Source: Bacteroidota bacterium (GTDB lineage: Bacteria; Bacteroidota; Ignavibacteria; UBA10030; UBA8401). From it: 37,406 bases of DNA. Below are positions 6,470 through 16,843 of the stretch, piece by piece (position 1 is the stretch's first letter; each line of letters opens with the position of its first letter). The DNA lies in contig JAUXTU010000098.1 in assembly GCA_030679145.1 (NCBI GenBank), forward strand, positions 1 through 37,406, in the 5' to 3' direction. The position numbers were made by a program, and so were the translations under genes. The notes beneath the pieces were generated by a model. It made no database searches, was not told the DNA's origin, and saw only the letters and a list, made by a program, of their open reading frames with translations.

Positions 6470-8513
6470 GTCCTATGCCAATGTGAACAATTGAAAATGA
6501 ATTAGTAAAGAATTGCTGTTCATATAACCATTGCCTGCCATTCTGTTCTTTAGGATCGTATAATCTCCATGCAAGATCTGCTCGAATTGGACCAACAAAT
6601 GTTTCATATCGTAAACCAACACCAACTGCAAGAGCTATTTCCGATACCATTACATCACTCACTTTATTCCACGTATTACCATAGTCTAAAAATGTTACCA
6701 ACCAAAATCGGGGAATTTCCAGCACATTAAAAATTTTCCCGCCATTAGGGGACAATTGTGTTCGAGATTCAAAACTGCCTTCGAGGGCAAAATTACCACC
6801 AATATTAGAGCCAGGTAAAGCTGAAAGTTGTTTATCTTTCCATCCTCGAACACTTGAACTGCCGCCGGCAAAAAATCTGCGAGGCAGCGGAACAGGTGTC
6901 GTATTTTTGAGATTATATAATTTTGCCATTCCCGTGTTGAATTTTAGTGCAAATACTTGAGACGGTAAATATTCACTACTAAAAAAGTGCTTTAGTAAGA
7001 TCGACAATTTAATATATTCAGAGAATGGAAGTCCAAATCCATCTGCAATTTTTGAGATGACGCCACCTTCTTCAATTGTGCCAGAATGAAAAAAACCTGC
7101 GGTTGGTGAAAAAATATTATTAGTCTTATCCCGCTGCAGCGTGTAAGACTCAATAAAATTGAACTGTTTTGTTGAATCTTCGGGACGAATACCTGATGCA
7201 TCAATTTTTTTATAGAAAGGATCAACACGTTCTATATTTAGATCTGTAATACCGACGGTGTACGTAGAAAGTTTTGTAATAAATCCAAGCTTTGCTCTTA
7301 ATGTTGTAAGATCATAATCACGTTGTTTCTCTGCTTCAGCAGAAAGTGTGATGGATGCACTTGTTTTATTATTCAAAAAATACGGAAAAACAATTTGTGA
7401 TTGAACATCAGCTTTCCCAAACAACGTCGGCTCCGACAGCCCTTTTGAAAACGCTCCGGGAAAATTCAATTCTTCAAAACTATTTGCGCGAATTCTCGGT
7501 GAGAATGAAAAATTCTGTGCCCCTCCGAAAAGATTATGGTGTTTATAGCTTAAACCCAAACCAATCGTTATAAAACTATACTGTGTATTCTCAAGTAAAA
7601 ATTCCGGCGTGATCTCCTGCAATTCCAACGTACGGAATGAAATAATTAAGGGGATGACATTCTTATTACTATCATTCTGGCTTGCCAAAAAATTATGCCG
7701 GACACTGGCAAATTCAAAGATTCCAAGACGGTTAAGATTTTGTTCGCTCTCCATCCGTTTCTCTTCATTATATATCTCCCCTTCCTGAAAATCCATCTGT
7801 CTCAGCATAACGCTGCTGTCAATGCGGTCATCAACATGATCAAAGGTTGTATTACCAAAGACGTACCGTTTCCCCGCATTAAATTTTAAAAGAACGGAGA
7901 TATTGTTCGTTGATGCATAACGGACAGAGGCGCTGCTGTCAAGAAATGCTTCTGAGTAACCACTATTGACCAGTTGTTTCTTAATGCGCGATTGCTCTTC
8001 GGTCAGAAGTTTTTTTGTGAAAGGATCTCCATGTTTCAATAAATTTTTCCCAAGAATATCGTTTCGAACATCAGCATCAATTTCTTCCAAACCCACAATA
8101 TGAACAGTATCTATGAATGATCTTGCATTTTCAGTTATGCCAATAGTTAAATTCACATATTTTTTATCGCTGCTGTACGATATTAGAGTATCAATTTTAG
8201 CGAGAATGTATCCATTATCTTTTAAATAAGTATAAAGATGAATAATATCTTGATAGAAGATATTGGGATCATAATATGCTCTTGGCGATCCGATGCCACG
8301 ATAAATATGCTCATTGAGAAATATTTCTATCGTCCATGGTGTTTCCATTGTAGCCAATTGGCTCACAATCTCATATTCTGAAATATTCTCCCCAACAATT
8401 ACATCAAGATCATTTACTTCGGCTTTTTGAGGAGTCTGGGTAAAACAAAATTGAGGCACAACGATAGCTATAATCGTCAGAAATAAAAAAAAATATAATG
8501 TTTTTACAGTCAA
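6459..8513 (-). CDS. Omp85/BamA-TamA family outer membrane assembly protein
   Basis: A protein of 684 aa with a signal peptide (Lys-Thr then a hydrophobic run, residues 4-25). About 250 residues of POTRA-like repeats follow (for example VDTVHIVGLEEI and LLTEEQSRIKKQL), then a C-terminal 16-strand-type barrel with the Omp85 loop motif VRGWKD and a terminal aromatic (GHAF). BamA/TamA proteins insert beta-barrel proteins or autotransporters into the outer membrane. The length, shorter than BamA, and the limited POTRA number favour a TamA/accessory type. The start is odd: the only reasonable initiator is TTG at 8513, no ATG occurs upstream in frame before the stop near 8574, and the preceding 17 nt are pyrimidine-rich with no Shine-Dalgarno. 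An intrinsic terminator ends only 23 bp upstream. It is the first gene of the overlapping set with holB, metG and hldD. Confidence 0.88.
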   Translation of the reverse strand: MTVKTLYFFLFLTIIAIVVPQFCFTQTPQKAEVNDLDVIVGENISEYEIVSQLATMETPWTIEIFLNEHIYRGIGSPRAYYDPNIFYQDIIHLYTYLKDNGYILAKIDTLISYSSDKKYVNLTIGITENARSFIDTVHIVGLEEIDADVRNDILGKNLLKHGDPFTKKLLTEEQSRIKKQLVNSGYSEAFLDSSASVRYASTNNISVLLKFNAGKRYVFGNTTFDHVDDRIDSSVMLRQMDFQEGEIYNEEKRMESEQNLNRLGIFEFASVRHNFLASQNDSNKNVIPLIISFRTLELQEITPEFLLENTQYSFITIGLGLSYKHHNLFGGAQNFSFSPRIRANSFEELNFPGAFSKGLSEPTLFGKADVQSQIVFPYFLNNKTSASITLSAEAEKQRDYDLTTLRAKLGFITKLSTYTVGITDLNIERVDPFYKKIDASGIRPEDSTKQFNFIESYTLQRDKTNNIFSPTAGFFHSGTIEEGGVISKIADGFGLPFSEYIKLSILLKHFFSSEYLPSQVFALKFNTGMAKLYNLKNTTPVPLPRRFFAGGSSSVRGWKDKQLSALPGSNIGGNFALEGSFESRTQLSPNGGKIFNVLEIPRFWLVTFLDYGNTWNKVSDVMVSEIALAVGVGLRYETFVGPIRADLAWRLYDPKEQNGRQWLYEQQFFTNSFSIVHIGIGHAF

Positions 8514-8535: not shown

Positions 8536-8565
8536 ATAAAAAACCCAGCATCATTATGCTGGGTT
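8536..8565 (-). terminator. Intrinsic terminator after the DUF2795-like gene
   Basis: AACCCAGCAT (8542-8551) and its exact complement (8556-8565) form a 10-bp stem with a 4-nt loop. On the minus strand it is followed directly by a run of six T residues (8538-8543). It lies 29 bp below the stop of the 74-aa gene and ends 23 bp before the Omp85 start, leaving no room for a separate promoter. Confidence 0.9.
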
Positions 8566-8593: not shown

Positions 8594-8818
8594 TTAATAC
8601 TCACTCTCATCTTCATAAAAGAAATCGTCACCTGTCGGATAATCAGGCCAAATATCTTCTATACTTTCGTACGGTTCTTCCGCATCTTCTAATTCGTTCA
8701 AATTTTCTAATAACTCTGGAGGAGAACCCATGCGAATAGCATAGTCTATTAACTCTTCTTTTGTTGCAGGCCACGGAGCATCATCAAGATACGAAGCCAG
8801 TTCCATAGTCCAAATCAT
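8594..8818 (-). CDS. Small acidic protein, DUF2795-like
   Basis: A protein of 74 aa, very acidic and rich in Trp, Pro and Tyr. The N-terminal half contains PWPATKEELIDYAIRMGSP, a helix pattern like the DUF2795 family (short proteins of unknown role). The C-terminal half is an acidic tail (YESIEDIWPDYPTGDDFF). There is no signal peptide, membrane helix or metal-binding motif. It follows the M23 peptidase by 30 bp and ends before a strong terminator, so it closes that transcript. I recognise this protein type from the Bacteroidota/Ignavibacteriota branch, where it is short and conserved, but I know no function. The acidic tail suggests a protein-binding or nucleic-acid-mimic role, which is inference. 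Confidence 0.75.
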   Translation of the reverse strand: MIWTMELASYLDDAPWPATKEELIDYAIRMGSPPELLENLNELEDAEEPYESIEDIWPDYPTGDDFFYEDESEY

Positions 8819-8848: not shown

Positions 8849-9802
8849 TTACTTGTTATCGACAAGTTGAGCCCTGATTTTTTCATAATCAATATCGTCT
8901 ACGAAATACTCAACCGGATTCTGCTTTTCACTATTCCGAATCACTTCATAATGCAAATGTGGACCAGTAGAACGACCGGTATTACCCGAATATGCAATTA
9001 GCGCACCACGTTTTATTTTTTGTCCAGAACGTGCTACACATTTTGACAAGTGAGCGTACCAACTTTTATATCCATAGCCATGATTTACCATTAAAGCAAT
9101 TCCATATCCGCTACCTGTTGGACCGGTAAATTCAACTTCACCATCGCCTGTAGCATAGATCGGAGTTCCAACATCGCCATGGATATCAACACCTTCATGT
9201 CTCTTCAAACTTCCTATCAATGGGTCGTTTCGCAGACCAAACCCATGATACGAGTACGTTCCTATCATAGGTTTAATCGCCGGCATTGAGGCAAAAACTA
9301 CCTTATTATGCTCATACTGGTTATAAATTTGCTCATAGCTTGACCGTTGGAATTCAACTTCTTTATCTAATTTATTTAACAACTGTTTCGAAGTTCCAAT
9401 CAACTCGTCTGCATCTTTAGAAAGCAAACCGCCAAAAGATTCAACTGCAGTGCCTCCTGTTCCTAATTGACGTGTTTCAAGGTCAATTTTAGGAAGGTTT
9501 ACAATTGAACGCAATTGATTGTCACTCTGAGCCAATGAGCTAATAGAAGAAAAATAATTATTCATTCTCTCATTCATCTCTCTGACTTGCTGTTTGAGGA
9601 TAGCATTTTCGGTTGTTAGCTCATTTGTGGTCTTGAAACCCAATCCGAGAAAATCTCCATAGGAATTATTCACAAAACCCGTAACAAATAAAGCCACAAT
9701 TGTCAAAAAAGTGACAACTGCTGTCATCCGTAAACGATACCCTTTCGCTTCTACGTAAGAAACGCGTTCATTTGAATAGAAAAAAAGTTTTTTTCGTTTC
9801 AT
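8849..9802 (-). CDS. Membrane-anchored M23 (LytM) metallopeptidase
   Basis: A protein of 317 aa with a basic N-terminus (MKRKK), one membrane helix at about 27-44, and a polar, probably coiled-coil stretch of some 130 residues. A C-terminal M23 domain follows. The zinc ligands are intact: HEGVD (HxxxD), HLS near the middle, and HLHYE (HxH), so it should be an active peptidoglycan endopeptidase facing the periplasm, not a degenerate EnvC-like activator. I use the ATG at 9802; a TTG three codons upstream is also open. A near-consensus promoter lies at 9834-9862. It sits between hprK and the DUF2795-like gene. The soluble and coiled-coil layout resembles bacterial proteins tied to cell shape or division, but the exact role is not visible. 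Confidence 0.92.
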   Translation of the reverse strand: MKRKKLFFYSNERVSYVEAKGYRLRMTAVVTFLTIVALFVTGFVNNSYGDFLGLGFKTTNELTTENAILKQQVREMNERMNNYFSSISSLAQSDNQLRSIVNLPKIDLETRQLGTGGTAVESFGGLLSKDADELIGTSKQLLNKLDKEVEFQRSSYEQIYNQYEHNKVVFASMPAIKPMIGTYSYHGFGLRNDPLIGSLKRHEGVDIHGDVGTPIYATGDGEVEFTGPTGSGYGIALMVNHGYGYKSWYAHLSKCVARSGQKIKRGALIAYSGNTGRSTGPHLHYEVIRNSEKQNPVEYFVDDIDYEKIRAQLVDNK

Positions 9803-9833
9803 TATGCCCAATCAAAGTTATTTGTGCAGAAAG

Positions 9834-9886: not shown

Positions 9887-10897
9887 TCATTCAAAATCAT
9901 GTTCAAAATAGTCAATATTTCGTTTCCCGGCACCTTTGGACTTACTTTGTATTACTTTTTCCAGTTTTTTCGAGAATTCCTGGGCAGCATCATATCCATA
10001 ATGTTTGGTCAGATAATTCAAAGCAATCACTTCTGAAATTACTGTAACATTTTTTCCCGGATGTATCGGAAGTTTTACATGAGGAATTTCAACGTCAAGA
10101 ATATTGATCTTTTCTTCGTCCAAACCAGTACGAGTAAAATTTCCATTCGGCTCCCATTCCATTAGTTCAACAACAACTTCTATTCGTTTTTGAAATCGAA
10201 TAGACCGAACACCAAAGATGCTTTGAACATCAATCAACCCGAGTCCACGAATTTCCATAAAATGTTTTACGAGATCAGTGCCCGTTCCAATGAGAATATT
10301 TTCCCCTTTTCGGGTAATAGTAACGACATCATCGGAAACTAAACGGTGACCGCGCTCAATAAGATCGAGTGCAATTTCACTTTTACCAATTCCAGAACGA
10401 CCAATAAATAACAATCCGACACCGTAAACATCAACAAATGAACCATGGAGTGTTGATTGTTGAGAGAATTGGTCGTCCAAAAAATCACTGAGCAGGTAAA
10501 CGAATTTTGTAGTTTCAAAAGGAGAACGAAATACAGGAACATTATGGTCTTCAGCAATTTTAAGAAGCTCTTTATCCATGTCATTGTTATTGGTTATAAC
10601 AATACATGGAATTTCAAATTTAAACAGCGTGTTAAAGGATTCAATCCGTTTTTCTAATGGCATACTCTTTAGATATAGCATCTCGGTATTTCCGAATACT
10701 TGCACTCGGTCGTACGTAAATAGACCAACATATCCTGCTAGTGCCAGTCCCGGACGATGGATACTTTTTTCTTTAACCTTGTTATCCATTCCGACATTCA
10801 CCAAAGTCTCTAGTTTCAATCGGTTCTTGTTTTTTTCAACCAAAAATCCAATGGTGATGTGCTGTTTTCGATATTCTTTTCCGATATTCAATGCCAT
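9887..10897 (-). CDS. hprK: HPr kinase/phosphorylase
   Basis: A protein of 336 aa with both HprK domains: the N-terminal ligand-sensing domain (about 1-135) and a C-terminal kinase domain. Visible landmarks are LHG with His151, the P-loop GRSGIGKS (166-173), SDD at 188-190, and the family signature EIRGLGLIDVQSIFG (215-229). The enzyme phosphorylates and dephosphorylates a Ser of HPr-type proteins according to metabolic state. No HPr, EI or PTS gene is seen in this window, and many members of the Bacteroidota/Chlorobiota branch keep hprK without a sugar PTS, so the partner may be an NPr-like protein. A GAGGTG ribosome-binding site precedes the ATG. The gene follows hpf by 8 bp in the xerC-hpf-hprK run, an arrangement that recalls the hpf-ptsN neighbourhood of proteobacteria. 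Confidence 0.95.
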   Translation of the reverse strand: MALNIGKEYRKQHITIGFLVEKNKNRLKLETLVNVGMDNKVKEKSIHRPGLALAGYVGLFTYDRVQVFGNTEMLYLKSMPLEKRIESFNTLFKFEIPCIVITNNNDMDKELLKIAEDHNVPVFRSPFETTKFVYLLSDFLDDQFSQQSTLHGSFVDVYGVGLLFIGRSGIGKSEIALDLIERGHRLVSDDVVTITRKGENILIGTGTDLVKHFMEIRGLGLIDVQSIFGVRSIRFQKRIEVVVELMEWEPNGNFTRTGLDEEKINILDVEIPHVKLPIHPGKNVTVISEVIALNYLTKHYGYDAAQEFSKKLEKVIQSKSKGAGKRNIDYFEHDFE

Positions 10898-10905
10898 AAC
10901 ACCTC

Positions 10906-11238
10906 TTAAATTTTTTCACGGGTTTTACGAATCACTTTTTTATCTTTTTGTTCATGTTTCGATTTATATTTTTGCAACTGCCGCTCTATCTTGTTTACTG
11001 CCGCATCAATTGATTTCACATACTCATCTGTTTTTTCCAAAGATTTAAGTACCGATCCCCGCACCTTCACTACAAGTTCGGCTGCCTTTAAACTGTTTTT
11101 AGATTTTTCATAACTTAAGATAAGATCTGCGCTCAATATTCCATCATAAAACTTTTCTAACTTATTTAATGAATCAAATGCATAAGCACGCAGTGTTTCA
11201 TGTGCTTTAAAGTGTCGAGCAGTAATGTAAATATTCAT
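10906..11238 (-). CDS. hpf: Ribosome hibernation-promoting factor, short form
   Basis: A protein of 110 aa matching the HPF/RaiA (YfiA) fold. It starts MNIYITARHFKAHE, has the central RGSVLKSLEKTDEYVKSIDAA helix region (given in part), and ends in a Lys/Arg-rich tail (KSKHEQKDKKVIRKTREK). This family binds the 30S decoding site and stabilises inactive ribosomes in stationary phase. The absence of the C-terminal dimerisation domain marks it as a short HPF, which usually needs RMF or another partner to form 100S ribosomes. The start is supported by an AGGAAA site. It lies 12 bp after xerC and 8 bp before hprK, so the three are co-transcribed. Confidence 0.92.
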   Translation of the reverse strand: MNIYITARHFKAHETLRAYAFDSLNKLEKFYDGILSADLILSYEKSKNSLKAAELVVKVRGSVLKSLEKTDEYVKSIDAAVNKIERQLQKYKSKHEQKDKKVIRKTREKI

Positions 11239-11250
11239 TGAATTTTCCTT

Positions 11251-12159
11251 TCAGGATGATGCTTTAGGGTGAGCTTGTTGATAGATTTTTTTAAGACGTT
11301 CAACAGTAACATGAGTATATATTTGTGTTGTAGAAAGGCTTTCATGCCCCAATAATTCTTTAACTGCCAAAATATCGGCGCCATTATCAAGTAAGTGTGT
11401 TGCAAATGAATGCCGTAAAACGTGCGGGCTCTTTTTTTGAATTTCTGTGTTTCCGGAAAGATATTTCTTAACGAGTGTGTTTACTTTTGAAGGGGTTAAT
11501 CGCATTCCTTTTTCATCAAGAAAAAATACTGTACCATGATAACTATCATTATTACCACTAATGCTCTTTCGAAATGTAATGTATCGATGGATTGATTGTT
11601 TTGCATTTTTTGTAAAAGGAATGATCCGTTGTTTATTCCCTTTACCAGTTACTTTAATAGTCTGATTTCGTTCATCAATATCGGACAATGTCAAACCAAG
11701 TAATTCTGCCCGACGAATTCCGCTTCCATAGAACAACTCTAATATTGCTGAATCCCGCGCACCCACAAATGTTGTAACATCCGGAAGCATCAATATTTTT
11801 TCCATTGAATCTTTATCAATGAACTGTGGGAGTTTTTTTTCAATTTTAGGTGAGATAATATTAAGCGCCGGGTTATTTCGTACGAATTTCCTTCTGACAA
11901 GAAATTTATAGAACGAGCGTAATGTTGAAAGCTTTCTAACCACACTCTTCTTTGAGATACCAGAGTCCAGCATCAAGCCCAAAAAAGCACGAATAACACC
12001 GGTATCGGTATCATTATGTTTTTGGATCAATTCTGGAAATTCTTTCTTTAAGAATGAGTAATACTGGGCAAGGTCGTTTGCGTACGAAATGATAGTATGT
12101 TGAGAATAATTTCTCTCGTTCTCAAGATACGAAAGGTATTCACTGATAATTTTCTGCAT
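11251..12159 (-). CDS. xerC: Tyrosine recombinase, XerC/XerD type
   Basis: A protein of 302 aa with the SAM-like N-terminal core-binding domain (1-90) and a complete catalytic domain. The catalytic residues can be read off: Arg149 in GSGIRR, Lys173 in TGKGNKQR, His246 and Arg249 in SPHVLRH, His272 in LLGHESL, and the Tyr281 nucleophile in TTQIYTH. This is the length and form of chromosomal Xer recombinases, which resolve chromosome dimers at dif together with FtsK. No integron, phage or attachment site surrounds it; its neighbours are topA and hpf, which supports a housekeeping role. Choosing between XerC and XerD is not possible from sequence alone. It follows topA by only 9 bp. Confidence 0.92.
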   Translation of the reverse strand: MQKIISEYLSYLENERNYSQHTIISYANDLAQYYSFLKKEFPELIQKHNDTDTGVIRAFLGLMLDSGISKKSVVRKLSTLRSFYKFLVRRKFVRNNPALNIISPKIEKKLPQFIDKDSMEKILMLPDVTTFVGARDSAILELFYGSGIRRAELLGLTLSDIDERNQTIKVTGKGNKQRIIPFTKNAKQSIHRYITFRKSISGNNDSYHGTVFFLDEKGMRLTPSKVNTLVKKYLSGNTEIQKKSPHVLRHSFATHLLDNGADILAVKELLGHESLSTTQIYTHVTVERLKKIYQQAHPKASS

Positions 12160-12168
12160 TCAATTCAA

Positions 12169-14442
12169 TCAGACTGCAATTGCTTGTGCTTCCTGCTCAT
12201 CAAGATAATATTCTTCTTTACAGTTCGGACACAGCAGGTAATCACCTTTGCGTTTCGTTGATTTCTTGGTAAGATAATTATTTCCGCAATTCTTACATGG
12301 CTGCATTACAGGCATTTCCCACGAAATAAAATCACATGTCTTTGGCTCACCATTGGAATTTGAGCACCGGAAAAAAATCCTTTTCTTTCGAGTTTTACTC
12401 TGCACAATTTCACCATCGGCGCACTTGGGACATTTTACACCGGTCGAAATCGGCTGTGTATTTTTACACGTCGGATAGTTTGAACATCCAAGAAATGTTC
12501 CAAACGGTCCGCCTTTCACTTTCATTTCACCGCCGCATAATTTGCAGATTAGACCGGTTACATGCGCATATTTTTCCGTTTCATCTTCTAACGGCTTTCT
12601 ATTTTTACAAGTTGGATAGCCCGAACAGGCTTTGAACTGTCCGTATCTTCCCCACTTGATGATCATCGGTTTACCGCACAAATCACACGCTTCACCCGCA
12701 TCATGTTGTAATGATTTTTTGATCTTTCCTGCTTCATCATTCATATGTTCCAATGAATGGCTGAACGGTTTATAAAAATCATCAAGAACTTTTACATAAT
12801 TGTTTTCACCGCTGGCAATCGTCTCTAATTCATCCTCCATCTGAGCAGTGAATTTATAATTTACAATTTCAGGAAAACATTTCATCAGAATCTTGATAAC
12901 CACCTGTCCAAGTCCGGTTGCATATAATTTTCTGTCCTGTTGATCAACATATTGACGATTGAGAATTGTTGAAACGATCTGCGCATACGTACTCGGACGA
13001 CCGATACCTAATTCTTCAAGTTTTTTCACCAAACTTGCTTCGGTATAGCGCGCCGGAGGTTTTGTGAAATGCTGTTTTGGAAGAAGTTTTTCGAGATTAG
13101 CGGCTTGTCCTGCTTCAAGATTTGCAGGAATTTTAGAGGTTGGATCATCGTCTGCTTCAACACCTTTCTCTTCAAGAACATCATCATACACTTGCAGAAA
13201 TCCTCGGAACAACGGTACAGAACCGGTTGCACGGAATAGATACACTCCACCGGTGATGTCTACAGTCAATTGCTCAAAGGTAGCACTGCTCATTTGTGAA
13301 GCAACAAAGCGATTCCATATCAACTGATAAACAGCATACATATCTTTGTCAAGATATTTTTTCACATGTTTTGGTGTGAATTTTATCGATGTCGGACGAA
13401 TTGCTTCATGCGCATCCTGAGACGATTTTCCTTTTTTGTATTCCCGTTTTTCTTTGGGAAGATATTCTTTACCATAATTCGAATAGATATAATCTCGAAC
13501 TCCAGCAATTGCATCTTCACTTAATCGGGTTGAATCCGTTCTCATATAGGTAATGAGACCTACGGTTCCTTCGTCTCCAAGATCTATACCTTCATACAGT
13601 TTCTGTGCCAGCATCATTGTTCGTTTTGCAGAAAGTCTAAGTCGACCTGCGGCTTCTTGCTGCAACGAACTTGTGATAAAAGGAGGATTAGGGTTTCGCT
13701 TCACATCCTTTTTCACAACATCTGAAATTTGGAATTGTGTTTTGCGAATTTCTTCAACTTGTCCGGATGATATTACTTCATTTCCAATGATTGGATCCTT
13801 GCCAGATATCTTTGCAAGTCTGGCGAAGAATGGATCGGACTTTTCAGTTTTAAATTCAGCACTGATCGTCCAATATTCTTCAGGAATAAATTTTTTGATC
13901 TCGTCTTCACGTTCACAAATAATCCGTAACGCAACAGATTGAACACGACCGGCAGATAATCCGTAGTAGACGGTCTTCCACAAGAATGGACTGACTTTGT
14001 ATCCCACCAAACGATCCATTGCACGCCGCGCGCGCTGTGAGTCAACAAGGTTTATATCCACTTTGCGGGGATTGTCCATTCCTTCCGCAACACCAGTTGG
14101 AGTAATTTCATGGAACAGAACTCTATAGATATTCTTATTCTTATCTTCTAACTCTTCAAGGATATCATACGCAATCGCTTCACCTTCGCGATCAGGGTCA
14201 GTTGCGATATAGATATTCTTTGCATCGCTGGCATAGCTTTTCAGTTTTGCAACAACATCTTCTTTTCCGGCTATGACTTCATAGACCGATGCATAATTAT
14301 TTTCAACATCAACACCTAGTTTACTTTTTGGGAGGTTCTTAATATGACCTACCGACGCCTCAACAATATAATCCTTACCAAGGTATTTATTGATTGTCTT
14401 CGCTTTTGAAGGTGACTCAACTATGATTAACGATTTTCCCAT
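12169..14442 (-). CDS. topA: DNA topoisomerase I (type IA)
   Basis: A protein of 757 aa. The N-terminal Toprim domain shows IVESPSKAKT (Glu9) and TDPDREGEA (acidic Asp82, Asp84, Glu86 binding magnesium). The catalytic Tyr is residue 299 in ITYMRTDSTR. The core continues to about residue 570 (GIGRPSTYAQIV). The C-terminus carries four zinc-ribbon-like modules with CxxC pairs beginning CDLCGKPM, CKLCGGEM, CPKCADGE and CKNCGNNY. It relaxes negative supercoils and balances gyrase. The gene lies between smg and xerC; the topA/smg neighbourhood is recurrent in bacteria. Length and domain order are typical. Confidence 0.97.
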   Translation of the reverse strand: MGKSLIIVESPSKAKTINKYLGKDYIVEASVGHIKNLPKSKLGVDVENNYASVYEVIAGKEDVVAKLKSYASDAKNIYIATDPDREGEAIAYDILEELEDKNKNIYRVLFHEITPTGVAEGMDNPRKVDINLVDSQRARRAMDRLVGYKVSPFLWKTVYYGLSAGRVQSVALRIICEREDEIKKFIPEEYWTISAEFKTEKSDPFFARLAKISGKDPIIGNEVISSGQVEEIRKTQFQISDVVKKDVKRNPNPPFITSSLQQEAAGRLRLSAKRTMMLAQKLYEGIDLGDEGTVGLITYMRTDSTRLSEDAIAGVRDYIYSNYGKEYLPKEKREYKKGKSSQDAHEAIRPTSIKFTPKHVKKYLDKDMYAVYQLIWNRFVASQMSSATFEQLTVDITGGVYLFRATGSVPLFRGFLQVYDDVLEEKGVEADDDPTSKIPANLEAGQAANLEKLLPKQHFTKPPARYTEASLVKKLEELGIGRPSTYAQIVSTILNRQYVDQQDRKLYATGLGQVVIKILMKCFPEIVNYKFTAQMEDELETIASGENNYVKVLDDFYKPFSHSLEHMNDEAGKIKKSLQHDAGEACDLCGKPMIIKWGRYGQFKACSGYPTCKNRKPLEDETEKYAHVTGLICKLCGGEMKVKGGPFGTFLGCSNYPTCKNTQPISTGVKCPKCADGEIVQSKTRKKRIFFRCSNSNGEPKTCDFISWEMPVMQPCKNCGNNYLTKKSTKRKGDYLLCPNCKEEYYLDEQEAQAIAV

Positions 14443-14463: not shown

Positions 14464-14922
14464 TTAATTGATTGTATCTTTTCCACCAAGCATTGTTCTG
14501 CTTCCCGTGTTGAATGAATCATCATTTTCTGCCATTAACTGCGCAACCATTGATTTAACTTCATTCACATCAACAGAGATATATCCACTCATCATAATCC
14601 GATCGATAATTACTTCAATATCCGTATCAGTTATAATTCCAAGTTCGCGTAATTGAATGAGATACCCATATGCTTCTGCATTGATCACCGACCGTTCAAC
14701 ATCATGAAGAACTCTGTGTGAATGAGGGGAACTTGCAGCAATATCGGTGATGATGTTGCTGCCATCAGAGATTTTTTCAAAGAGCCAGTTGAATGCGGTA
14801 CTGATCTCGGTTGTAGAATATCCTTTTTTCGAAAGAACACTCAAATCAATATCGTGGATAGGAATATTGTTGCGCAATTCACCGATCAGATACATTAAAA
14901 TTTCAACTATTTTTTCTTGCAT
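14464..14922 (-). CDS. smg: Smg family protein (DUF494)
   Basis: A protein of 152 aa matching the Smg/DUF494 family: MQEKIVEILMYLIGEL at the N-terminus, the helix-turn pattern LSKKGYSTTEISTAFNWL in the middle, and the characteristic ELGIITDTDIE stretch before the C-terminus. The family is small, cytosolic and of unknown biochemical role; in many proteobacteria it sits by dprA and topoisomerase zinc-ribbon genes. Here it is directly upstream of topA (21 bp) and 13 bp after ybeY, which keeps the link to topoisomerase. The N-terminal half looks like a winged or helical repeat. There is no catalytic motif. Confidence 0.85.
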   Translation of the reverse strand: MQEKIVEILMYLIGELRNNIPIHDIDLSVLSKKGYSTTEISTAFNWLFEKISDGSNIITDIAASSPHSHRVLHDVERSVINAEAYGYLIQLRELGIITDTDIEVIIDRIMMSGYISVDVNEVKSMVAQLMAENDDSFNTGSRTMLGGKDTIN

Positions 14923-14935
14923 CCTTATCCTTTCT

Positions 14936-15358
14936 TCACTTTTTCAAATTCAATACTGAAACATACCGTTCCTGAATTGCATTCATCTTCTTTTGGTTAA
15001 CTTTTGTTGTATCGTCATACCCAATTGCATGTAATGTTCCGTGTACCACAAGACGTGTTAACTCATTTTTTACTGTTACATTATTCTCTTTTGCCTGCCG
15101 TTTTGCCTGCTGTGAGTTGACATAGATCTCGGCATTGACAGCTTTTATTTCCAGCGGAAACGTGATAACATCGGTTACATAATCGTGTTGTAAAAACTTT
15201 TTATTGATCGTTCGAATTGCCCTGTCATTTACTATAATGAATGAGAGTTCTGCATTTTTTATTTTCTCTTTATTACAAACAAATTTTGCTATATGCTTTA
15301 TTTCAGAACCAGAAAAAAGAATATGCTTATACGCTTTTGTTACCGATACAACAATCAT
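14936..15358 (-). CDS. ybeY: Endoribonuclease YbeY (rRNA maturation factor)
   Basis: A protein of 140 aa of the UPF0054 family. It has the conserved block LQHDYVTDVITFPLE (56-70), AEIYVN (76-81), and the metal-binding motif HGTLHAIGYDD at 106-116. YbeY is a single-strand RNase that matures the 16S rRNA 3' end and takes part in late ribosome quality control. Most members have three His ligands in HxxxHxxxxxH; here the third is Asp116. Asp or another residue at this spot also occurs in Bacteroidota members as I know them, so loss of activity should not be assumed. The ATG overlaps the stop of the upstream 147-aa gene by 4 bp. Confidence 0.93.
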   Translation of the reverse strand: MIVVSVTKAYKHILFSGSEIKHIAKFVCNKEKIKNAELSFIIVNDRAIRTINKKFLQHDYVTDVITFPLEIKAVNAEIYVNSQQAKRQAKENNVTVKNELTRLVVHGTLHAIGYDDTTKVNQKKMNAIQERYVSVLNLKK

Positions 15359-15798
15359 TTCTTTTTTGGTTTAGAGTCTTCTTTAGTCAGTGAAAGTGCT
15401 ATACCCGCAAGCATCACGTCGATACTTAACATCCGATAATCACCCGAAAGAATTGAACGATCAACATTCGCATAGAATGTGCAGCCGCCCTCTTTTTCTA
15501 TAACAATTGCGGAAACTTTGTCTTTTGTTTCCCCGATAAATGTCACTTCACCAACATCCTGACTCACTACGTATCCGCTGCAGAACTGTAATTGAAAATG
15601 AGTGTTATGGGTGTAGGCAGAAATGAGATTTCCTTTTTTCTTTCCAATTGAAATGGATGGATAGATTTCAAGTGCTAACTGGCGATTCTCTTTAATGTTC
15701 GCCAATTCAAACCGGAAATTATTTCCTTTCAATTTTGCTTTAACTCCCAGCACTTTCTCTATCTTAGTAATATCAGCTTTTGCAAATGTTGATTTCAT
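15355..15798 (-). CDS. Conserved-looking protein of unknown function upstream of ybeY
   Basis: A protein of 147 aa that I do not recognise. It has no signal peptide and no long hydrophobic helix. It is rich in alternating hydrophobic/polar strands (for example LALEIYPSISIG, HFQLQFCSGYVV) and ends in a Lys-rich tail (KEDSKPKKK), which suggests a small soluble beta-rich protein, perhaps RNA- or ribosome-associated given the tail. Two Cys residues are not in metal-binding spacing. An AAGGAT site precedes the ATG at 15798, and the stop overlaps the ybeY ATG by 4 bp, so its production is coupled to YbeY. It is the first gene of the ybeY-smg-topA-xerC-hpf-hprK run and lies directly after a leader with an intrinsic terminator. 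The function is open. Confidence 0.8.
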   Translation of the reverse strand: MKSTFAKADITKIEKVLGVKAKLKGNNFRFELANIKENRQLALEIYPSISIGKKKGNLISAYTHNTHFQLQFCSGYVVSQDVGEVTFIGETKDKVSAIVIEKEGGCTFYANVDRSILSGDYRMLSIDVMLAGIALSLTKEDSKPKKK

Positions 15799-15816
15799 AC
15801 GAAATATCCTTCAAAC

Positions 15817-15846
15817 AGAAAAACCCCGTAATCGTTGATTGGGGTT
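15817..15846 (-). terminator. Intrinsic terminator or attenuator before the ybeY operon
   Basis: On the minus strand AACCCC (15841-15846) pairs with GGGGTT (15822-15827), with an inner AATC/GATT stem, and a run of five T follows. It ends the MBL hydrolase transcript 100 bp after that stop codon. It also lies between a good promoter (15905-15934) and the ATG at 15798, so it may work as an attenuator for the downstream operon. Confidence 0.85.
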
Positions 15847-15847
15847 C

Positions 15848-15893
15848 GATGTCTCACAGCAATATGTGTTATTATTATGTTCAAATGAGCATC
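15848..15893 (-). promoter_or_regulatory. Leader hairpin next to the terminator
   Basis: In the minus-strand RNA GAUGCUCA (15886-15893) can pair with UGAGACAUC (15848-15856) through eight pairs with one bulged A, around a 29-nt loop. It abuts the terminator stem with almost no gap, so the two may form a tandem regulatory structure. I match it to no known riboswitch class. Confidence 0.45.
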
Positions 15894-15904
15894 AGGTCTG
15901 TACA

Positions 15905-15934
15905 AATATAGAGAGAGGTTAGTATGGAAGTCAA
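15905..15934 (-). promoter_or_regulatory. Sigma70-like promoter for the ybeY-topA-hprK operon or a short leader RNA
   Basis: Minus strand TTGACT (15929-15934), an 18-bp spacer and TATATT (15905-15910). The start would be near 15898, leading straight into the hairpin at 15848-15893 and the terminator at 15822-15846. No other promoter fits between the terminator and the ATG at 15798. Confidence 0.5.
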
Positions 15935-15946
15935 GTTTTTCGTTAA

Positions 15947-16843
15947 TTACCACGAAATTTCAAGACCTTCGTAAGCGGCAGTACATTCAAACGTAAAATG
16001 CTTCTGTTTTATTTCATGTCTGCATTTTTGGAGAATTTTATCGACATTTTCATCCGTTCTATTTGGTTCATGATGAAAGAGAACACAATGTTTTACATTC
16101 GCTTCACTTGCAAGTTTAAGGGTGAATAAGTAATGAGAATGGCCCCATCCTACTTTATCAACATATTCTTCCGGAGTATATGTGGCATCATGAATAAACA
16201 CATCTGCACCTTGAACAAAATCTACAATTCGCTGATTTGGATCACCCTTTTGCTCAAGAAATTTCTTAAGAACAATTGGTTCAAAATTTGTCATTCGAGT
16301 TGCAGATTCTTTATCAAAAGGTTCATTATCACTGATATAGACTAATGATTTTCCTTTATAATCTATTCGGTATGCAACTGTAAATCCGGGATGATTGACA
16401 TACAAGGTTTTTACGCGTGCACCAAAAATATTAAATTCTTCTTCGCCAATACTTCGGAAATGTATCTTTGCTTTCAATTCGTTCAATTGAATTGGAAAGT
16501 AAATCTTCTTCATTTGGTCTGCAATGATATGCTGAAGGTCTATTTCTTCCCGGTCAGTTCCGATAACAGTAATTTCATTCCCGGAAATGAACGCCGGTTT
16601 GAAAAATGGAAATCCTTGAATATGATCCCAATGAGGATGGGTGATAAGAATATAGGTTTGAATTGATTCCCCATTCGCAATAAGGTGATCCCCTAAATTT
16701 CTTATACCGGTCCCTGCATCAAGGATAACCAACTCTCCATTATCCAGACGAAGCTCAAGCGAGGGAGTATTTCCACCGTACTTCACTGTACTTTTTCCCG
16801 GAGTAGGAATTGATCCACGAACACCCCAAAATTTCAATTTCAT
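15947..16843 (-). CDS. Metallo-beta-lactamase-fold hydrolase (WGVRGS type)
   Basis: A protein of 298 aa with an MBL fold of the RNase Z/phosphodiesterase-like group. The N-terminal WGVRGSIPTPG is followed by ILDAGTG, then the zinc motif HPHWDH (69-74). Further ligands are His151 (NHPGFTVAYRI), Asp172 (YISDNE) and a late His in FHHEPNR. All metal ligands appear present, so a binuclear hydrolase is expected. Relatives with the same N-terminus are often cyclic-nucleotide or other phosphodiesterases, and some are fused to signalling domains; none is fused here. There is no signal peptide, so it should be cytosolic. A strong AAGGAAGG site precedes the ATG. It is the last gene of the ctpA unit, ending before the terminator at 15817-15846. 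The substrate is unknown. Confidence 0.88.
   Translation of the reverse strand: MKLKFWGVRGSIPTPGKSTVKYGGNTPSLELRLDNGELVILDAGTGIRNLGDHLIANGESIQTYILITHPHWDHIQGFPFFKPAFISGNEITVIGTDREEIDLQHIIADQMKKIYFPIQLNELKAKIHFRSIGEEEFNIFGARVKTLYVNHPGFTVAYRIDYKGKSLVYISDNEPFDKESATRMTNFEPIVLKKFLEQKGDPNQRIVDFVQGADVFIHDATYTPEEYVDKVGWGHSHYLFTLKLASEANVKHCVLFHHEPNRTDENVDKILQKCRHEIKQKHFTFECTAAYEGLEISW

Follow-up and report, generated by a model that had tools for sequence, protein, structure and literature searches.

What purpose does a terminator serve between the promoter of an operon and its first start codon? The question is raised by a locus in the window (the whole stretch of DNA analysed here, 37,406 nucleotides long), where a promoter, a bulged hairpin termed P1 and an intrinsic terminator precede the first gene of an operon on the minus strand. 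The preliminary description had placed the promoter at 15934-15905, the bulged hairpin at 15893-15848, the terminator at 15846-15822 and an ATG at 15798, and the minus-strand sequence has all four at these positions. It had also taken this ATG for the start of ybeY; the codon instead opens a reading frame of 147 aa, ORF147, and ybeY begins at 15358.

The leader and the operon behind it

The features of the locus, read in the direction of transcription, are as follows.

15947..16843, minus: MBL, the upstream gene, encoding a metallo-beta-lactamase-fold hydrolase (Pfam Lactamase_B_2)
15934-15929, minus: -35/-33 element TTGACT; all 7 columns of TTGACTT are invariant in 10 genomes
between TTGACT and TATATT, minus: promoter spacer of 18 nt
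15911..15918, minus: spacer stretch CCTCTCTC, 8/8 columns invariant in 10 genomes
15910-15905, minus: -10/-7 element TATATT, with TATATTTG reaching to 15903; invariant in 8 congeners
15897..15899, minus: transcription start, predicted from the promoter
15893-15885, minus: 5' arm of P1, GATGCTCAT; the longer GATGCTCATTTGA (15893-15881) is invariant in 10/10 genomes
15881..15892, minus: minimal reading frame ATG-CTC-ATT-TGA, in the 5' region of P1
15857-15848, minus: 3' arm of P1, GTGAGACATC, with a bulged A15852; 10/10 columns invariant in 8 congeners
15846-15822, minus: intrinsic terminator hairpin AACCCC-13 nt-GGGGTT, its arms invariant in 8 congeners
15846-15841 and 15827-15822, minus: the terminator arms, AACCCC and GGGGTT
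15813..15823, minus: T-rich tail TTTTTCTGTTT, invariant in 10/10 genomes
15811-15807, minus: Shine-Dalgarno-like AAGGA of ORF147, between terminator and ATG
15355..15798, minus: ORF147, first gene of the operon, 147 aa, ATG at 15798
14936..15358, minus: ybeY (Pfam YbeY, 2.9e-27)
14464..14922, minus: DUF494 (Smg-like) gene (Pfam DUF494, 1.6e-18)
12169..14442, minus: topA, DNA topoisomerase I (domain search)
11251..12159, minus: Xer-type tyrosine recombinase gene (domain search)
10906..11238, minus: hpf, S30AE-family (domain search)
9887..10897, minus: hprK (domain search)
8849..9811, minus: M23 peptidase gene (domain search)

The TATATTTG stretch matches the Bacteroidetes -7 consensus TAnnTTTG as quoted in PMC7366714. 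The terminator and the ATG at 15798 are only about 24 bases apart, the AAGGA ribosome site included, and the terminator stem has an energy of -8.5 kcal/mol in the window and of -8.5 to -12.9 across the genus. Behind the leader, the genes ORF147-ybeY-DUF494-topA-xer-hpf-hprK-M23 all lie on one strand with short gaps between them, and from this orientation and spacing the M23 peptidase gene is probably a further member of the operon. A 74-aa reading frame (8594-8818, minus strand) follows it, and a strong terminator behind that frame (8536-8564, minus strand; stem -14.0 kcal/mol) probably ends the operon; the TTG at 8513, listed as the start of the next ORF, sits just behind this terminator.

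ORF147 itself has no match in Pfam or NCBIfam, and homologues are found in 51/60 related genomes and in 149/245 genomes of the class. (It is also present in two Zixibacteria MAGs; an AlphaFold2 prediction, mean pLDDT 87.9, gives a beta-rich fold with two helices, for which the top match among solved structures is weak: the immunity protein 6cp9, E 0.05.)

Within the single sequence, the leader shows nothing beyond chance, and it is the comparison with relatives that carries the case. A promoter scan of the window sequence found 4 sites when 6.9 were expected from shuffles, the first terminator scan found 0 (its loop limit was 8, and the loop of the leader terminator is 13), and the fold of the window leader has z = -0.50, with 60/200 shuffles equally good. 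A known RNA family for the leader was rejected on the strength of Rfam 15, which gave 0 matches in the window at the gathering score and, at E up to 10, three matches at the leader, all of them at chance level and to families that are eukaryotic or unrelated; the view that the leader belongs to no known riboswitch class thus holds. No tRNA or tmRNA was found in the window.

Conservation of the leader and of P1

Across the 8 genomes of the genus, in which the fourfold-degenerate sites of ORF147 have a mean pairwise identity of 35%, the elements TTGACTT, CCTCTCTC, TATATTTG, TACAGACCT, GATGCTCATTTGA, GTGAGACATC, AACCCC and CGGGGTTTTTCTGTTTG are invariant, and identity drops to 62% in the P1 loop, 51% in the terminator loop and 72% in the remaining promoter spacer. 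All leader elements are present in 8/8 of these genomes and also in L018 and L019, single genomes from two further genera of the family, where GATGCTCATTTGA and the terminator arms are again invariant; the P1 3' arm keeps 7/10 columns across all 10 P1-bearing genomes. (The invariance of CCTCTCTC in ten genomes is unusual for a promoter spacer, and this stretch could be a regulator site.) The distance from the -10 element to P1 is 11 nt in the genus, compared with 12 and 22 nt in the two other genera, but the spacing between P1 and AACCCC is 1 nt in every one of the ten genomes. A fixed spacing to the terminator and a varying one to the promoter favour the view that P1 is an RNA element tied to the terminator.

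The leader is also confined to this one place. The sequence CCTCTCTCTATATT occurs once in each of the 10 genomes and is absent from the other 12 of the 22 family genomes. A covariance model of the leader has a strong match once per genome in 10/22 family genomes and, over the order, in the same 10/98 genomes, with remaining matches at E 5e-4 or weaker; these scans scored 150 first-look candidates per genome for the family and 45 for the order, so that weak copies could be missed. Since the strong matches are confined to the ORF147 locus, a leader regulon was rejected. Weak matches at the orthologous place in four genomes (G016, G013, G017 and G011) have the terminator and lack P1. The preliminary description had made its reading depend on conservation of the hairpins in relatives with the same gene order, and the arms of both P1 and the terminator are indeed kept in 10 genomes. 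It is this conservation which decides that the leader is, by comparison of related sequences, a real element.

How far P1 can be taken as a structure is a separate matter. Its arms are complementary over nine pairs, an extent reached in 292/20000 shuffles of the arms; the energy of the arm duplex is matched in 51/5000 shuffles, and 98.9% of the P1 alignment cells pair. There is no covariation, 0/16 pairs being changed on both sides, and 7/9 P1 pairs never vary. When the leader is folded by itself, P1 forms in nine of the ten genomes (not in L019), and the stability of the ten leader folds does not exceed that of shuffles (z -1.2 to +0.4). With 45 nt of the gene included, the probability of P1 becomes 0.46, 0.00, 0.05 and 0.00 in L011, L014, L015 and L019, P1 is uncertain also in L016, and the probability of the terminator is 0.00 in L014 and 0.03 in L019. 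On the evidence of these ten genomes, then, P1 is a conserved pair of complementary segments that probably forms a hairpin. A helix ACAGA/UCUGU closing around P1 and the terminator, which appeared in the first fold, was discarded, its top pair probability being 0.00-0.45 in the ten full-length folds.

The locus in relatives and the csp gene

To place the leader among its relatives, the upstream regions were read at 91 loci, comprising 51 and 9 more from the order and 31 outside it (the last from 101 matched genomes there); promoter and terminator patterns were found by simple scans, with a looser terminator scan for the 91 loci. At 54/91 loci (36/51 and 18/40) the start codon is preceded by a terminator whose end lies 16-57 nt away, thus within 60 nt of the ATG, compared with a mean of 1.4 of 91 and a largest value of 6 in 20 dinucleotide shuffles. 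Only 2/30 genes of the window have a terminator near their start: ORF147 and a gene located past the operon's end. The promoter pattern TTGAC-N17..22-TATNNT occurs within 560 nt upstream at 44/51 order loci and 24/40 further loci, and in two-base block shuffles at a mean of 1.4 of 91. The attenuator-type layout that had been proposed from the window is thereby supported, as it recurs in relatives. Also borne out is the claim that there is no room for a second promoter, since the 45 nt that precede the ATG contain a promoter-like site at just 2/91 loci, L021 (which has no terminator) and L178, and not in the window. In L178 (family f12) the promoter-like site overlaps the terminator, and ORF147 may have its own start there; together with the lack of a detected promoter before csp in f12 (see below), this indicates that read-through is not needed everywhere.

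The mean stem energy of the terminators is -11.0 kcal/mol in the genus, -18.1 at loci with a csp gene and -15.0 at all csp-less loci with a terminator. Among the 65 csp-less loci, 31 have promoter and terminator in that order, 21 the promoter only, 1 the terminator only and 12 neither, so that a scanned terminator is absent in 33/65. The congeners L020 and L021 have a near-identical promoter, which is followed in L020 by a leader with a terminator and in L021 directly by ORF147. Because promoter-only relatives exist (the 21/65 csp-less loci, such as L021 against L020), the promoter can be said to serve ORF147. (Seven csp-less loci, L030, L193, L196 and L197 in f6 and L163-L165 in f9, carry distinct leaders in the interval from promoter to terminator; by eye, these are alike within each clade and unlike P1.)

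An MBL homologue lies upstream of ORF147 in 48/51 loci (tblastn), and in relatives a csp gene may stand between the two. The csp gene lies just upstream of ORF147 in 26/91 loci, 22/26 of them with a terminator before ORF147; in the order, it is found between MBL or a contig edge and ORF147 at 15/51 loci. The 12 csp loci that were inspected run from the end of MBL through a TTGAC..TATATT promoter, csp and, mostly, a CCCC/GGGG terminator to ORF147, although in L028 the contig breaks off before the promoter is reached and in L026 no terminator can be made out clearly. Beyond the order, csp adjoins ORF147 in families f12, f13 and f20 (11 loci), so that six families altogether have csp at the ORF147 locus, of which three do not belong to the order. 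The promoter pattern was detected within 420 nt upstream of csp at 18/26 csp loci; none was found in seven f12 loci, and one further locus is cut. The leader of the window thus stands where relatives carry csp. (The window genome has two csps, both away from the ORF147 locus. In three loci of family f2, L084, L086 and L036, the locus csp has a 5' untranslated region of about 200 nt with visible inverted repeats, which resembles a cold-shock thermosensor leader. The start region of the leader itself may resemble the E. coli cold box, a likeness on which the reading given below does not draw.)

In a csp tree, a single branch (99, starred) divides the 26 locus csps from 46 csps that lie elsewhere in the window's family, and a smaller tree with 30 csps from elsewhere in the family gives the same separation; these trees rest on 67 columns, which resolve finer branching poorly, and draw their elsewhere-csps from the window's family only. 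Since locus csps and elsewhere-csps separate, the locus csp has not just been moved about within the family. When mapped onto a tree of MBL and ORF147, the csp label requires 5 changes, and the three states require 10 (mean of 22 after shuffling), counts that carry no direction and so do not distinguish gain of csp from loss; in this labelling, L077 and L081 were assigned a leader with terminator by eye, though stricter scans scored no terminator, and L026 and L028 were counted as csp though no terminator was scored. Two considerations favour loss: the six families with csp at the locus lie both within and outside the order, and the insertion of a gene exactly between a promoter and a terminator is harder than the deletion of one. 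Gain of csp into an older leader is a possible alternative. With csp lying between promoter and terminator in relatives, and belonging there to one csp lineage, the leader of the window would be a relict of a csp transcription unit.

Mechanism, rival explanations and known systems

Taken together, these comparisons point to a reading which we hold to be probable, though by no means secure: the region is the leader of the ORF147-ybeY-DUF494-topA-xer-hpf-hprK operon, it works by partial termination, and it is the bracket left behind by a lost csp. RNA polymerase would start near 15898 and make a leader of about 85 nt, in which the 5'-proximal hairpin P1 would form one base before the weak intrinsic terminator. 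At the terminator the polymerase would either stop, giving a predicted short terminated RNA of about 85 nt, or read through into ORF147, whose putative ribosome site lies directly behind. The weak terminator stems of the genus fit such leakiness. The promoter and terminator, judging from gene order and the trees, would once have bracketed a csp cistron, and as long as csp was present the terminator would have let it be made in excess over the operon behind. In the lineage of the window csp would then have been lost, the promoter-terminator bracket staying on as an attenuator, and P1 would have arisen in, or replaced, the former csp gene as a new, single-copy hairpin. The most likely role of P1 is to tune, in cis, either read-through or the stability of the RNA, because it is single-copy and always stands 1 nt from the terminator, at a distance from the promoter that varies. 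Csp proteins are, by analogy, a candidate trans factor at the leader terminator.

The preliminary description had also considered riboswitch-like switching, and this idea is not borne out: besides the missing Rfam match, P1 and the terminator do not overlap, and no run of three G is found in the leaders of the ten P1-bearing genomes, so that nothing is visible that could hold the CCCC arm in a base-paired switch. An antiterminator pairing with this arm was therefore rejected; in the ten P1 leaders the 5' arm of the terminator is on average 0-11% paired upstream, its outermost (first) base alone being 67-86% paired in the eight congeners. In other clades the CCCC arm is paired upstream (mean 0.70 in L022, 0.63 in L074 and 0.56 in L030), and a different mechanism is possible in clades like these. 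A related proposal is an on/off switch in which GAUGCUCAUUUGA would pair either with GUGAGACAUC, leaving P1 formed and the terminator free, or with the terminator loop (in L014 perfectly over about 10 bp), Csps made elsewhere in the genome choosing between the two, whereby the operon would have kept cold-shock control after the loss of its own csp. In L014 the terminator loop and the invariant GCTCATTTG can pair over about 10 bp (0/500 shuffles are as low), a pairing that the genus does not share. Summed over 9 genomes, the pairing of GATGCTCATTTGA with the terminator loops is equalled in 2/1000 shuffles, or 63/1000 without L014, and when the element is shuffled instead, in 58 and 306 of 2000, respectively; the signal comes mainly from L014, and we consider such a switch very improbable. 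A free-standing sRNA gene of about 85 nt, acting in trans through the invariant GAUGCUCAUUUGA with read-through into the operon being incidental, would account for a single copy per genome, a sharply conserved 5' segment and a promoter and terminator of its own. Yet each of the 10 genomes with the leader has it immediately before ORF147, the operon promoter has no other place, and neither the 13-mer nor its complement has a second site common to the genus (extra matches occur in 4/8 congeners, at differing places). An sRNA gene is consequently unlikely, even if it deserves some weight.

The terminator might instead belong to MBL as its 3' terminator, with the ORF147 promoter lying upstream of it by chance and termination being an unregulated side effect. 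MBL is upstream in 48/51 loci and the terminator is no more than 125 nt from the MBL stop, but the terminator is kept where MBL is not upstream (L020 and the f12, f13 and f20 loci) and where csp separates MBL from it, and the conservation of P1 would go unexplained; we regard this explanation as rather unlikely. A repressor or activator might also recognise P1 or the promoter spacer at the DNA level, with no RNA element involved. Such a role would agree with invariant sequence that lacks covariation and with the invariant spacer stretch CCTCTCTC; for P1 alone, however, it sits poorly with arms about 28 nt apart and with a promoter distance that varies by 11 nt between genera when the distance to the terminator is fixed. 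A DNA site of this kind appears quite improbable. Finally, a ribosome on ATG-CTC-ATT-TGA could open P1, so that termination shifts with growth rate, as in an ampC-like, translation-linked attenuator. This frame, situated inside P1 at the 5' end, is invariant in 10/10 genomes (its invariance also makes codon usage uninformative). In the genus it nevertheless has no Shine-Dalgarno sequence, its stop is 35 nt from the terminator, so that a ribosome would not touch the terminator arm, and neither L017 nor the remaining family genomes beyond the ten have it; a longer GTG frame, which spans the terminator, is by eye out of register in 3/8 congeners (L012-L014). Such translational control is extremely doubtful. 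Leader peptides, whether from the minimal frame or from the GTG frame across the terminator, were set aside by eye for lack of codon evidence, as was an antisense frame with a purine-rich stretch opposite the spacer, in which the substitutions, also by eye, are not synonymous.

By its layout, then, the leader would be classed as an attenuator, one that belongs to no described riboswitch family and, as far as the sequence tells, is not of the ampC type. The E. coli ampC attenuator is a short arrangement of promoter, leader, terminator and gene, with a minimal reading frame in the leader. The layout and the minimal frame are alike in the two, but the frame here has no ribosome site, lies 35 nt from the terminator and is separated from it by a conserved hairpin. 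A promoter-proximal hairpin upstream of a terminator is also found in the cis-acting antitermination RNAs put and EAR; the likeness lies in this order of hairpin and terminator, and the leader has no Rfam match at the gathering score. No published report of the leader was found in a search that reached few subscription papers.

If the preferred reading of a csp relict is correct, the loss of a gene has given rise to a regulatory RNA: the promoter and terminator of a lost first cistron have become an attenuator for the genes that follow, and living relatives still show intermediate stages: loci with csp, loci that have a terminator and no csp, and loci with the promoter only. Terminator read-through would then be a control point for the ybeY, topA, hpf and hprK operon in a poorly studied lineage of Bacteroidota/Ignavibacteria type. 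As an element the leader is of an ordinary kind, and its interest lies in how it arose and in how sharply P1 is conserved.

For the role of Csp proteins, the closest parallel comes from B. subtilis, where loss of CspB/CspD changes terminator read-through, mostly towards more (PMC8307031); antitermination by E. coli Csp proteins is cited in the same paper. The likeness to such Csp-controlled terminators is that the leader terminator borders csp in relatives, and any effect of Csp proteins here could have either sign. For the origin, the nearest precedent is the survey of attenuators by Naville and Gautheret (2010; PMC2965389), with which the leader shares a weak intrinsic terminator near the start codon of an operon. 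In that survey 5' terminators are less stable than 3' terminators, and the 3' terminators of decayed insertion-sequence genes are proposed to have been kept as attenuators of the next gene; its main text makes no mention of topA or cold shock. The reuse of a 3' terminator as an attenuator at the 5' end has thus been proposed before; what differs here from that survey is that the donor, csp, appears to be a vertically inherited housekeeping gene and that its promoter, still in use, has been kept besides the terminator.
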